Positions 17,971 to 63,236 of a stretch of 64,000 bases of DNA are shown piece by piece (position 1 is the first letter of the stretch; each line of letters starts with the position of its first letter). Under the pieces are notes generated by a model. It had not been told where the DNA came from, searched no databases, and was given only the letters and a program-made list of their open reading frames with translations. Source of the stretch: Haloferax sulfurifontis ATCC BAA-897 (lineage in GTDB: Archaea; Halobacteriota; Halobacteria; Halobacteriales; Haloferacaceae); assembly GCF_000337835.1 (NCBI RefSeq), contig NZ_AOLM01000027.1, positions 124,001-188,000 of the forward strand, in the 5' to 3' direction. Made by a program: the position numbers and the translations under genes.

Positions 17971-19998
17971 TTACCGACGCCGGGCGGCGACGAGCGCCGC
18001 CGCGACGAGCGCGACGAGGGCCACGACGAGACCGAAGCCGGGCGCGTCGGTGGACGACTCGGTCGTCGTCTCCATCGGCTCGTCCCCCATCTCGGTCGCG
18101 GGTTCATCGGTCATCGTCTCAGTCGGTTCGTCCGTCATCGAGTCGGTCGTCGTCTCGGTCATCGTGCCTTCGACCGTGTAGTCGGCCGTGGTGACGACCG
18201 CGCCGCCGGCGGCGACGTAGGGACCGTCGTTTTCGCCCTCACTGGTCACGAAGTCGTAGACCTCGTTGCCGTTGGTGTCCATGTGCGCCATCGGGACGAC
18301 GGTGCCGGACTCCTCGAACGGCGCGTCGAGGGTGATTTCGACGTTCTCGTGGGTGCCGGGTTCGAGGTACGCGGAAGTGCCGCGGACGCTCTCGAAGACC
18401 TGGCCCTCGGTGACGGTGCCGTCGTGGACCGTCACGAAGCCGCCGTCGTGGAGCGTGACGGACTCGACGGTGACGGTCGCGCCGTCGCCGGACTGGTCCA
18501 TCGCGGTCACGACCGCGTTGACCGAGGTGTGGGCGCTGGCGACGACCGCGCCGCCGTCAGCGGTGTACGGGCCGTCCGCGTCGCCCTCGCTGGTCACGAA
18601 GTCGTAGGCCTCGTTGTCGTTGGTGTCCATGTGCGCCATGGGAGTGAGCACCTGTGAGGAGCGAATCGGCTCGTCGAGGGTGACTTCGACGTCCTCGTGG
18701 ACGCCGGCGGGCAGGTACATCGAGGTGCCGACCACGCTGTCGAACACCGCGCCCCCCGACAGCGACGGGTCGTGAATCGTCACGAAGCCGCCCTGCGAGA
18801 GTTCGACTCGGTCGACCACGACGGTCGCGCCGTCCGACGACTTCGTCGTGTAGTCGACGCTGGCGGAGACGGTCGCGGTGCCGCTGTCGATGACGGCGCT
18901 CCCGTCAGCCGTGTACGGACCGTCGGCCTCGCCTTCCGACTCGGGGAAGGTGTACATTTCGTCGTCATCGGTGTCCATGTGCGCCATCGGGACGACGGTG
19001 GTCGTCTCGTTCAGCGGCGCGTCGAGGGTGACCCGCACGTCGCGGTGCAGACCGGGTTCGAGGTACATCGAGGTGCCGCGGATGCTCTCGAACACCGCGC
19101 CCTCGGTGACGGTGCCGTCGTGGACCGTCACGAAGCCGCCGTCGGGCAGGTACGCCGAGTCGACGACGACGGAGTAGCCGCCGGTGGCCTGCGCGGTGTA
19201 GTTCACGCTCGCGGTGTCCGAAGGCGTGGCCGTCGCGGTGTCGACGACGGCGCTCCCGTCAGCCGTGTACGGGCCGTCGGTCTCGCCCTCTGACTCGGGG
19301 AAGGTGTAGGTCTCGTCGCCGTCGGTGTCCATGTGCGCCATCGGGACGAGCGTCGTGTTCTCGGTCACGGGCGCGTCCAGCTCGACGCGGACGTTCTCGT
19401 GGACGCCGGCGGGCAGGTACGCGGAGGTGCCGCGGATGCTCTCGAACACCGCGCCCTCGGTGACCGTCGCGTCGTGAACCGTCACGAAGCCGCCCTGCGA
19501 GAGTTCGACGCGGTCGACCACGACCGAGTCGCCGGTCGTGGGCTGGTCGGACATCGAGACGGTCGCGCTCGCGTCGACCGTCGCGGTGTCGACGACGGCG
19601 CTCCCGTCGGCCGTGTACGGGCCGTCGGCCTCGCCGTTGGCCGCGACGAACGAGTAGACGCGGTCGCCGTCGGTGTCCATGTGGGGCATGGCGACGAACG
19701 TGCCGGACTCGTCGATTGGTTCGTCGAGGTGAACGGTCACGTCCTCGTGGGTGCCGGCCGAAAGGTACGCCGACGAGCCGACGACGCTCCCGAGGACGTT
19801 CCCGTCCGTGACGGAGGCGTCGTGAATCGTCACGAAGCCGCCCTCGGGGAGCGTGACGGAGTCGACCGTCACGGTCGTGCCGCCCGTCGCTTGGTTCTCG
19901 AAGGAGACGGCCGTGGTCTCCTGTTGTGCCGCGGCGGCCGCCGGGACGCCCCCGACGACCACTACGAGTGTCATCAGCACTGCGAGTGTGCGTCGCAT
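17971..19998 (-). CDS. Secreted five-repeat protein with PGF-CTERM anchor
   Basis: 675 residues. A Sec signal peptide (1-25, ending AAAAAQ) is followed by five tandem domains of about 116 residues starting near 30, 146, 264, 380 and 496. Each has GGFVT-V/I-HD, a G-T/S-S-A/M-YL motif, an HMDT-D/N-x-D/N loop and DGPY. I believe this is the DUF7282 family. A Thr/Glu/Asp-rich stalk (610-650) leads to PGFG, a hydrophobic helix and RRR, the archaeosortase A sorting signal, so the protein should end up lipid-anchored on the surface. The DxDxD loops resemble calcium-binding loops (inference). Monocistronic. Confidence 0.85.
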   Translation of the reverse strand: MRRTLAVLMTLVVVVGGVPAAAAAQQETTAVSFENQATGGTTVTVDSVTLPEGGFVTIHDASVTDGNVLGSVVGSSAYLSAGTHEDVTVHLDEPIDESGTFVAMPHMDTDGDRVYSFVAANGEADGPYTADGSAVVDTATVDASATVSMSDQPTTGDSVVVDRVELSQGGFVTVHDATVTEGAVFESIRGTSAYLPAGVHENVRVELDAPVTENTTLVPMAHMDTDGDETYTFPESEGETDGPYTADGSAVVDTATATPSDTASVNYTAQATGGYSVVVDSAYLPDGGFVTVHDGTVTEGAVFESIRGTSMYLEPGLHRDVRVTLDAPLNETTTVVPMAHMDTDDDEMYTFPESEGEADGPYTADGSAVIDSGTATVSASVDYTTKSSDGATVVVDRVELSQGGFVTIHDPSLSGGAVFDSVVGTSMYLPAGVHEDVEVTLDEPIRSSQVLTPMAHMDTNDNEAYDFVTSEGDADGPYTADGGAVVASAHTSVNAVVTAMDQSGDGATVTVESVTLHDGGFVTVHDGTVTEGQVFESVRGTSAYLEPGTHENVEITLDAPFEESGTVVPMAHMDTNGNEVYDFVTSEGENDGPYVAAGGAVVTTADYTVEGTMTETTTDSMTDEPTETMTDEPATEMGDEPMETTTESSTDAPGFGLVVALVALVAAALVAARRR
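18190..19910 (-). repeat. Five in-frame repeats of about 350 bp coding for the surface-protein domains
   Basis: The five protein repeats are visible at DNA level, for example in recurring segments encoding GGFVTVHD and PMAHMDTD. Units are spaced 348-354 bp. Divergence between units is considerable, so the duplication is not recent, but short identical blocks remain and could recombine. Confidence 0.7.
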
Positions 19999-46294: not shown

Positions 46295-46930
46295 ATGGAA
46301 CGACGTACCTTCCTGAAGAGCGTCGCCGCGACGGGAGCCCTCCTCACCACCGCCGGTTGTATGGGCGGTGGCTCCGAGTCACAGCCGACCTCGGGTAACG
46401 AGACGGGTAACGGCACCGCCGGGGAAACGACGACCGAGGCCGAGCCGGCCGAGGTTCCCGACCCCGAGCTCGCCTTCCGCACGAACGGCGGCGTCCTCCG
46501 CGTCGTCCACATGGGCGGCGAGAAAATCACCGACGAGTCGACGAGCGAGGTCTACGTCGCCGTCGACGACGAGCGCGCCGCGACGTGGGTCGACGACAGC
46601 GAAGAGACCGAAGACTTCCCCGTCTCGGTCGGTAACTTCCAGAAAATCGAGTCCGCGGAGACCGGTTCGACGGTCGAAGTCGTCTGGGTCGGCACCGAGG
46701 GTGCCGAGGAAGTCCTCGCGACCCACGAAGTCGCCGCCGAGGAGACCGCGACGGCAACCGAGACGACCACAACGACGACGAACGAGACGGTCACCGAGAC
46801 GACGACGGCAAACGAGACGGTCACGACCACCGAAACCACGACCGCGAACGAAACCGCGACCGCGACGGCCACCGAGACGACGACCGCGAACGAGACGACC
46901 ACGTCGTCCGGCAACGAGACCAGCAACTGA
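46295..46930 (+). CDS. Tat lipoprotein with pilin-like domain and glycosylation-rich stalk
   Basis: 211 residues. Twin-arginine signal and lipobox (RRTFLKSV...TTAGC). A compact beta domain (about 55-145) resembles the archaeal type IV pilin core (LRVVHMGGEKI, VEVVWVGTEGAEEVLATHEV). The last 65 residues are Thr/Glu-rich with repeated N-E-T sequons, so heavy N-glycosylation is likely. A TATATAG box is 25 bp upstream of ATG 46295, so the transcript is probably leaderless. Unusual placement of a pilin-like domain on a lipoprotein; see findings. Confidence 0.75.
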   Translation: MERRTFLKSVAATGALLTTAGCMGGGSESQPTSGNETGNGTAGETTTEAEPAEVPDPELAFRTNGGVLRVVHMGGEKITDESTSEVYVAVDDERAATWVDDSEETEDFPVSVGNFQKIESAETGSTVEVVWVGTEGAEEVLATHEVAAEETATATETTTTTTNETVTETTTANETVTTTETTTANETATATATETTTANETTTSSGNETSN

Positions 46931-47077: not shown

Positions 47078-48055
47078 TCAGTCGTCGGCCGGGAGGGCGT
47101 CCGGGTCGACCGCCGGCTCGGGCGCGACGAGACCGACGCGGACGCCGAGGCGGCGACCCAGCGGGCCGAGCGCGTCGCGCTTCATGAACGCGAAGCCGAG
47201 GAGGATGAGCGCGAAGCCGGCGATGGTGACGGGGCCGACGCGCTCGCCGAGGAACGCCCAGCCGGAGATGGCGGCGACGACCGGCGTGACGTAGTTGACG
47301 AGGCTGATTTCGACCGCGCCGATGCGGTCGAGCAGGACGAAGTAGGCGATGAAGCCGACGGCGCTACACAGCACGGCCAAAAACAGGAGCGCGGCGACGA
47401 CCTGCGGCGACCACGCCACGCTTTCGAGGCCGGATTCGCCGAGGACGGGGCTCGTGACGTGGAGCATGCCCGCGCCGAGGAGCATCATCCACGCCTGCAT
47501 CGGGACGACCGGCGGGTTGCCGGGGAGACGCTTGACGAGCACCGAGCCGAACGCCCACGCCGCGGCGGCGAGAAACAGCAGGACGACGCCGAGCAGTTGG
47601 CCGCCGACCGACCCCGAGGCGAGGGCGATGAGTACCGTTCCGGCCAACCCCAGCAGGACGCCGAGGAAGCCGAACGCGTCGAGGCGCTCGTCGGGGAGCA
47701 TCGGCCACGCGAAAAGCGGCGTGAGGACGGGCGCGAGGCTGATGACGATGGCCGAGACGCCGCTCGTCACGTACCGCTGGCCGGAGAACAGAAGCGAGAA
47801 GTGCGCGCCGATGAGGAGCGCGCCGCCGACGGAGACGACGACCCACTCGTCGCGGCCGCGGGGCCGCCAGTCCTCCGCCGCGAGCAGGCCGTAGACGAAC
47901 AGCATGGCGCCGGCGACGTCGTACCGGAGGGCGGCGAACAGCACGGGCGGGAGGGCGTCGAGGCCGACCTCGATAGCCATGAAGGAGGTCCCCCAGAGGA
48001 CCGCGATGGTCGAAAACAGTGCGAGCGTCCGATTCGTTTGCGTATTGATAGACAC
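47078..48055 (-). CDS. EamA/DMT-family transporter
   Basis: 325 residues from GTG 48055. Ten membrane helices in two five-helix EamA repeats: VLWGTSFMAIEVGLDALPPVLFAALRYD in the first and AAAAWAFGSVLVKRLPG in the second. It exports metabolites such as amino acids or nucleosides; the substrate is unknown. A frame 84 bp longer is not haloarchaeal in composition. The 5' spacer carries the tandem array at 48211. Confidence 0.82.
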   Translation of the reverse strand: MSINTQTNRTLALFSTIAVLWGTSFMAIEVGLDALPPVLFAALRYDVAGAMLFVYGLLAAEDWRPRGRDEWVVVSVGGALLIGAHFSLLFSGQRYVTSGVSAIVISLAPVLTPLFAWPMLPDERLDAFGFLGVLLGLAGTVLIALASGSVGGQLLGVVLLFLAAAAWAFGSVLVKRLPGNPPVVPMQAWMMLLGAGMLHVTSPVLGESGLESVAWSPQVVAALLFLAVLCSAVGFIAYFVLLDRIGAVEISLVNYVTPVVAAISGWAFLGERVGPVTIAGFALILLGFAFMKRDALGPLGRRLGVRVGLVAPEPAVDPDALPADD

Positions 48056-48210
48056 GAGATATCGACCGTAAACCCAGGTGTTGAAGCGGCTACCACGCCG
48101 CCGTACATCAAATTTCTCGGAGCCGAGATAGCACTCCACTCGGGTCGTGTTGACAAACGTCTCAGTTCGACGGAACGTCGGCGAGACCGTCGGCGACGAC
48201 GAGTCGCCGC

Positions 48211-48340
48211 GGCGGCGACGCGACGACTGCGGCGGCGACGCGACGACTGCGGCGGCGACGCGACGACTGCGGCGGCGACGCGACGACTGCGGCGGCGACG
48301 CGACGACTGCGGCGGCGACGCGACGACTGCGGCGGCGAGG
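48211..48340. repeat. 20-bp tandem repeat array, six units
   Basis: Six consecutive units of CGACGACTGCGGCGGCGACG from 48221 to 48340 plus a half-unit before them; only the last unit has a base change (GAGG for GACG). The unit is not a multiple of three, so it does not code a repeat protein. It lies between the start of the transporter gene and the start of pus10. Not CRISPR, since there are no spacers. Confidence 0.95.
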
Positions 48341-48403
48341 CGGTGAGCCGGCGACCCGGCGAACAAAGTAAGCTAGTTACGCGCGCCCCGATAGAGACCG
48401 ACC

Positions 48404-49687
48404 ATGAGCATCCTTGAGGACGCGCGAGCGCTCGCCGAGAGCGGGCCGGTCTGCGACGCCTGTCTGGGCCGGGCCTTCGCCGAGCGCAGTTTCGGGCTGA
48501 CGAACGCCGAGCGGGGCAAGTCGCTCCGGGTCGCCGCCGCCCTCGACGACGACGAGCCGTACGAGGCCGTCGACACCGAGGACTGCTGGGTCTGCGAGGG
48601 GGCCTGCGCCGAGTTCGACGACTGGGCGGAACGCTGTGCAGAGGCCATCGAGGACGTCGAGGTCGAGACGTATCAGGTCGGCACCCGCGCGCCGCCGCTC
48701 GTCGAGGAGAACGAACTGCTCCTCCGCGAGGGCGCGGGCCTGCCCGAGGACGCCGGCGAACTGTTCAAATCCGAGTTCAACCGCGAGGTCGGAAAGCGCG
48801 TGGGGCGACTCACCGGCACCGAGGTCGACTTCACCCGGCCCGACGTGCAGTTCCTCCTCGACATCGAGGCCGACACCGTCGAGGCGCAACTCAACTCCGC
48901 GTTCGTCTACGGGCGCTACCGGAAGCTCGCCCGCGACATCCCGCAGACCGAGTGGCCCTGCCGCGAGTGCGACGGCTCGGGCTACAAGGGCAAAGAGCCG
49001 TGCGACTACTGCGGCGGCTCCGGCTACCTCTACGAGGACAGCGTCGAGGGCTTCGTCGCCCCCGTCGTGACGGACGTGATGGACGGCGTCGACGCGAAGT
49101 TCCACGGCGCGGGCCGCGAAGACGTGGACGCGCTCATGCTCGGCACCGGCCGGCCGTTCGTGGTCGAAATCATGGAGCCGCGTCGCCGCAGTATCGACGT
49201 AGAACAGCTCGAAGGCGACATCAACGCGATGGCCGACGGCGAAATCGAAGTCGAGGGGCTTCGGCTCGCCACCTACGACATGGTCGAGCGCGTGAAGAAA
49301 CTCGACGCGAGCAAGGAGTACCGCGCCGCCGTCGAGTTCGACGACGACGTGACCGACGAGGAACTGGGGGCCGCGCTGGACGAACTCACCGGCGCGACCA
49401 TCGAGCAGTACACGCCGCACCGCGTCGACCACCGCCGCGCGAGCATCACCCGCACCCGCCACGTCTACGACGCCACCGGCGAGCTCGAAGACGCGCGCCA
49501 CGCGACCGTCGAAATCCACGGCGAGGGCGGTCTCTACATCAAGGAACTCATCTCCGGCGACGAGGGCCGAACGAATCCGAGCCTCGCCGGCATCCTCGAC
49601 ACGGGCGCGGTCGTCACCGCGCTCGACGTGATTGCGGTCGAAGGCGAGGACGAACCGTTCGAGGACGACGAGTTCTTCAAGGACTGA
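48404..49687 (+). CDS. pus10: tRNA pseudouridine synthase Pus10
   Basis: 427 residues. It makes pseudouridine at positions 54 and 55 of archaeal tRNA. The N-terminal THUMP-bearing domain has zinc cysteines at C17, C20, C61 and C64. The catalytic Asp is in GREDVDALMLGTGRP (Asp240). Two CxxCxGxG zinc motifs lie at 186-206. Pseudouridine 54 is the substrate of TrmY (36527-35931). The start codon follows the spacer with the tandem array by 60 bp. Confidence 0.93.
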   Translation: MSILEDARALAESGPVCDACLGRAFAERSFGLTNAERGKSLRVAAALDDDEPYEAVDTEDCWVCEGACAEFDDWAERCAEAIEDVEVETYQVGTRAPPLVEENELLLREGAGLPEDAGELFKSEFNREVGKRVGRLTGTEVDFTRPDVQFLLDIEADTVEAQLNSAFVYGRYRKLARDIPQTEWPCRECDGSGYKGKEPCDYCGGSGYLYEDSVEGFVAPVVTDVMDGVDAKFHGAGREDVDALMLGTGRPFVVEIMEPRRRSIDVEQLEGDINAMADGEIEVEGLRLATYDMVERVKKLDASKEYRAAVEFDDDVTDEELGAALDELTGATIEQYTPHRVDHRRASITRTRHVYDATGELEDARHATVEIHGEGGLYIKELISGDEGRTNPSLAGILDTGAVVTALDVIAVEGEDEPFEDDEFFKD

Positions 49688-63099: not shown

Positions 63100-63190
63100 G
63101 CGACTCGTCGCGCCCCGAGTCTTCCGTTGACTCAGCATATCCGTGAGCCGCACGGCCGTCCCGTCGGGCGAAATAGCTAACATTCAGACG

Positions 63191-63232
63191 TTCGTACTCG
63201 GTTCCGAGTGGTTCGTACTCGGTTCCGAGTGG
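63191..63232. repeat. Exact tandem duplication of a 21-bp unit containing a palindrome
   Basis: The unit at 63191-63211 is repeated exactly at 63212-63232. Each copy contains the inverted repeat ACTCGG-TT-CCGAGT. The second copy ends 4 bp before the ATG of the small membrane-protein gene. A phasing of two helical turns is what paired operators often show. Confidence 0.9.
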
Positions 63233-63236
63233 TATC

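Follow-up and report, generated by a model that had tools for sequence, protein, structure and literature searches.

A 20-bp tandem array upstream of pus10 in Haloferax sulfurifontis, probably a young and neutral minisatellite

The spacer between a transporter gene and pus10 in Haloferax sulfurifontis ATCC BAA-897 carries a 20-bp unit that is repeated head to tail. This raises the question of whether the array serves gene regulation or is a by-product of DNA copying. The first-pass annotation, made from the sequence alone, offered three options: a length-variable switch, a protein-binding array or a simple slippage product. The window analysed here is a stretch of 64,000 nucleotides from a draft Haloferax genome, which is distributed over 29 contigs. 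The last of the three options is favoured. With high confidence, we take the array to be a minisatellite (VNTR) of recent origin that is probably neutral and arose by slippage or unequal recombination; both slippage as the mechanism and the lack of a function are inferred. The features of the locus are as follows (window coordinates).

47078 to 48052, minus strand: gene for an EamA-family transporter (PF00892, E 1.1e-38; alignment)
48110 to 48119, minus strand: block reading AAATTTCTCG on the plus strand, putative TATA/BRE of the transporter gene (conservation in Haloferax)
48191 to 48209, plus strand: degenerate unit-like stretch 5' of the first unit, counted in the array by TRF
48210 to 48329, plus strand: six exact tandem copies of the 20-bp unit CGGCGGCGACGCGACGACTG (direct reading, exact string match, TRF)
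48330 to 48338, plus strand: 9-bp partial seventh unit CGGCGGCGA, identical to the first nine bases of the unit
48366 to 48381, plus strand: AAGTAAGCTAGTTACG, putative core promoter of pus10 (conservation in Haloferax)
48404 to 49687, plus strand: pus10, tRNA pseudouridine(54/55) synthase (TIGR01213, E 9.2e-162, 538 bits)

The six-unit array and the identity of its neighbors, as first described, were confirmed by exact string matching, TRF, Pfam and TIGR01213 (the Pus10 protein also matches Pus10_C and Pus10_THUMP_arc in Pfam). Its position had been given with an offset of one or two bases. The units had been called nearly identical; the identity stands, but the six copies are in fact exact. 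By including the degenerate unit upstream, TRF arrives at a wider range, 48191-48342 (score 262, period 20, 7.7 copies, 95% matches). The array is far above chance expectation: when the 351-bp spacer was shuffled 500 times with its dinucleotides preserved, the best TRF score was 64, and no shuffle reached 100. Over 464 kb of the same genome (the window plus 400 kb), no other high-identity array comes close to it in strength, and only one other, of 22 bp and 3.1 copies, passes the thresholds (at least 3 copies, 85% matches, period at least 7, TRF score 80). Minisatellites and VNTRs consist of highly identical head-to-tail units of roughly 10-100 bp, and the six 20-bp units are of this kind. A CRISPR array was considered and rejected, as the units abut head to tail with no unique spacers between the repeats.

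TRF also calls other repeats in the window. A Thr/Glu/Ala/Asn-rich tandem repeat with periods of 18-42 bp (46749-46922) is located at the C-terminal end of the ORF at 46295-46930, the start of which resembles a Tat lipoprotein signal. A degenerate long tandem repeat (18248-19844; period about 348 bp, 4.6 copies, 72% matches) probably represents repeated protein domains, judging by its length. A perfect 21-bp repeat is found at 63190-63233 (2.1 copies).

The transporter gene and pus10 are divergently transcribed, which places the array between their 5' ends. A coding role was checked by reading both frames. The pus10 frame is open for just three codons 5' of its ATG. The transporter frame stays open across the array, but it has no ATG, GTG or TTG start 5' of 48139, which is where the mechanically called ORF begins; the start codon judged by conservation is the GTG at 48052. 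The array is noncoding, as had been proposed.

The spacer contains two conserved blocks, for which we assume promoter roles on the basis of conservation and position. Aligned across 15 Haloferax genomes, the transporter block reads AAATTT/CTCGG; it is located about 90 bp from the array. The pus10 block starts 27 bp downstream of the array and 38 bp before the ATG of pus10. The pattern AAGTAAG[CG]TAGTTACG occurs exactly 38 bp 5' of pus10 in all 15 Haloferax genomes, and the block is a single site in the H. sulfurifontis genome when up to 2 mismatches are permitted. Of 100 other haloarchaea, 29 have a looser version (up to 4 mismatches) at 37-38 bp, compared to 0.7 per 100 in shuffled sequences. 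Inverted arms (GTAA/TTAC) are found inside the block, which may be a plain core promoter or a pus10-specific operator. Between the two blocks, much of the spacer differs in length and sequence across the genus, and the array is in this variable part. The distance from the pus10 block to its gene is constant at any spacer length in the 15 genomes. The array lies upstream of both putative core promoters, each of which keeps its normal distance to its own gene.

The closest comparison is with Haloferax denitrificans ATCC 35960, which is graded as the same species. The flanks are 97.60% (1 kb left) and 97.87% (2 kb right) identical, excluding gaps (60 gap columns on the right side). At the same site, H. 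denitrificans has one unit followed by the identical 9-bp partial unit, so that the difference is exactly 100 bp, which corresponds to five units. Six units in one strain and one in the other is whole-unit variation as seen at VNTR loci, although the comparison within the species cluster covers two strains and the copy number, being taken from a draft assembly, may be wrong. In the alignment, a second unit is found at the locus in none of the 13 other Haloferax genomes, and two of these (Haloferax marisrubri and genome G014) have one imperfect unit-like stretch. Across the aligned genus, the unit is not conserved. Within the order, two of 392 genomes contain the exact unit, at this locus alone: six times in H. 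sulfurifontis and once in H. denitrificans. As H. denitrificans has a single unit and the other Haloferax genomes lack a second one, parsimony favours an expansion in the lineage of the window. The array had been suspected to be young and length-variable, and a comparison of copy numbers among strains had been proposed, with a constant number, together with no effect of a deletion on expression, counting against the idea; the distribution described here agrees with youth, and the number differs between the two strains compared. The lack of differences among the six units is by itself a weak sign of youth, because by our own estimate about 1-2 substitutions are expected over 120 bp at this strain divergence.

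A second intergenic array from the same genome (contig C19, L124:5247-5313; 22 bp, 3.1 copies) is unrelated to the 20-bp array and is located in a different spacer. In H. denitrificans, it has 2.1 copies and is exactly 22 bp, or one unit, shorter. Whole-unit change thus occurs at two unrelated loci and is not special to pus10.

The sequence of H. denitrificans suggests how the array may have originated. There, GCGGCGGCGA occurs at both ends of the single unit as a 10-bp direct repeat with a spacing of 20 bp. In H. sulfurifontis, the 9-bp partial unit, taken together with the G before the first unit, gives GCGGCGGCGA. The ancestral spacer would have contained one GC-rich 20-bp stretch, whose initial bases, together with the preceding G, recurred 20 bp further on as GCGGCGGCGA. 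A second unit could then have been generated by replication misalignment across GCGGCGGCGA, or by unequal recombination between chromosome copies, and further slips in the lineage of the window would have led to six units. Such a repeat is the expected seed for slippage. Slippage or unequal recombination across it would yield exact 20-bp duplications. The array probably persists because it is sited where the spacer is under no constraint, 5' of both putative core promoters. Assistance by hairpins is at best weakly supported: compared with shuffled sequences, folding is slightly better for the plus strand of the array (z -2.36) but clearly worse for the minus strand (z +4.43), which limits the argument to one strand. 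Neutrality is probable, and a weak effect through promoter spacing is conceivable.

A related question is whether the position upstream of pus10 is itself a hotspot for such arrays. This was prompted by a Halorubrum MAG (L042, identical to L187), which has an independent 20-bp array (CCGATCGACGGAGTCGGGCG, 3.5 copies, 100% identical) ending 65 bp upstream of pus10; by TRF, the H. sulfurifontis array ends 61 bp upstream. In L104, a 16-bp array ends 53 bp 5' of pus10. In a survey (at least 2.8 copies, 85% matches, period at least 7, TRF score at least 60, within 400 bp), arrays were found upstream of pus10 in 5 of 115 regions. Control genes, taken from a codon-usage gene caller, had arrays in 13 of 651 cases overall, in 10 of 307 with a spacer of at least 100 bp and in 6 of 176 with a spacer of at least 200 bp. 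Roughly 3% of haloarchaeal genes whose spacer is 100 bp or longer thus have such an array on their upstream side. The rate at pus10 is not clearly higher (5 of 115 versus 10 of 307), and convergence at a hotspot was rejected. Two of the five arrays (those from H. sulfurifontis and L187) were known before the survey, as were those of L068 and L104; leaving out the H. sulfurifontis and L187 arrays, the count is 3 of 113. One of the control arrays is the L068 array again, seen from the side of its other neighbor. The upstream region of L131 comprises 109 bp of sequence in all, and the 100 survey genomes from outside Haloferax are a nonrandom choice from near the top of a ranked list.

A mobile or scattered element was also considered. 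This does not fit with the exact unit being confined to this locus in two of 392 genomes. The viral contigs searched gave no match to a 25-base pattern, and we read weak matches elsewhere (68-91% identity) as GC-rich background.

Among the alternatives to a young minisatellite, a length-variable switch comes first, and we regard it as very unlikely. Here, the number of units would set the distance between the divergent promoters and hence the expression of the transporter gene or pus10, similar to phase variation. In its favour, the array has divergent promoters on its two sides, and its length differs by 100 bp between two strains. The change, however, is located 5' of both putative core promoters, so that promoter-to-gene distances are unaltered. 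Moreover, 13 other Haloferax genomes manage without a second unit, and the length of the spacer varies freely in the genus. In phase variation, the unit number alters promoter geometry or a reading frame; this array is outside of genes and upstream of the putative promoters. Pus10 performs a general tRNA modification, which would be an unusual target. The switch option gained no positive support, and the single copy in a near relative makes a recent copying stutter likelier than a switch.

That the true copy number is other than six due to an assembly error is highly improbable. In a draft assembly of 29 contigs, short reads can miscount a perfect repeat of 130 bp. Assemblers, however, usually collapse repeats and seldom invent copies. 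In addition, H. sulfurifontis ATCC BAA-897 has been sequenced with 454 reads of more than 400 bp on average, according to the accessible part of the source (PMC3404096), and these would span the array if they were used for this assembly.

One may also speculate that tandem expansions just 5' of core promoters serve as adjustable spacers or insulators, with whole-unit gains tuning the crosstalk of divergent haloarchaeal promoters. The 20-bp array of the Halorubrum MAG and the 16-bp array of L104 would then be parallel cases. This idea is hardly probable.

The least probable reading is a protein-binding array, with each unit being an operator or a site for an architectural protein on one helical face: a period of 20 bp, about two helical turns, would place the sites nearly in phase, but the units lack the dyad that is typical for many archaeal repressors (the longest perfect palindrome within the array is the 4-bp CGCG), and the exact unit occurs nowhere else in the genome and is absent from 390 of 392 genomes, so that neither a regulon nor a conserved site is indicated. 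A regulator-binding unit would be conserved in relatives or repeated elsewhere, and this one is neither; the binding option has no positive support. The helical argument, to which the first-pass annotation had drawn attention, did not hold up. In 20 kb from each of 40 relatives, high-identity arrays in coding and noncoding regions have many other sequences and periods ranging from 12 to 38 bp, so that two helical turns are not a preferred length and a special 20-bp period was rejected.

The young minisatellite remains the preferred reading, and the locus is a clean example of an expansion from one to six units, for which the sister strain still shows the seed repeat. The array can serve as a marker in strain typing and to measure slippage in polyploid haloarchaea. 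Should the number of units, contrary to expectation, change the expression of pus10 or of the transporter gene, this would be an archaeal length-variable switch.

Several known systems can be compared. In bacteria, phase-variable promoter repeats usually alter the spacing within a promoter or beside an activator site. They share with this array the position of tandem repeats near a promoter, but the array is located outside both putative core promoters. Prokaryotic minisatellites and VNTR loci are a closer match, having short identical head-to-tail units at one noncoding locus and whole-unit differences between close strains; unlike these, the array is known from two strains and not from population typing. 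Among the matches listed for haloarchaeal tandem repeats, archaeal VNTRs and Haloferax Pus10 or slipped-strand events, the portions of text that were available do not mention this array. Frequent changes of intergenic distance in haloarchaea are described in the available portion of one report (PMC7760734). Prokaryotic satellites, as far as the consulted sections of a survey describe them (PMC6749651), are short, local and species-specific arrays, as is this one, and some are attributed to DNA duplication errors. The short-repeat satellites of Halobacteria in these same sections are mostly multiples of three and coding, whereas this array has a 20-bp unit and is intergenic (PMC6749651). The nearest haloarchaeal case is Haloquadratum walsbyi, for which the excerpted part of the report (PMC3119063) describes strains that differ in short tandem repeat copy number ('Indel_PolyRepeat'). 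The likeness consists in repeat-copy changes at the strain level in a haloarchaeon and in short direct repeats at the ends of indels; that text stresses deletions between direct repeats, whereas parsimony points to an expansion upstream of pus10 (PMC3119063).
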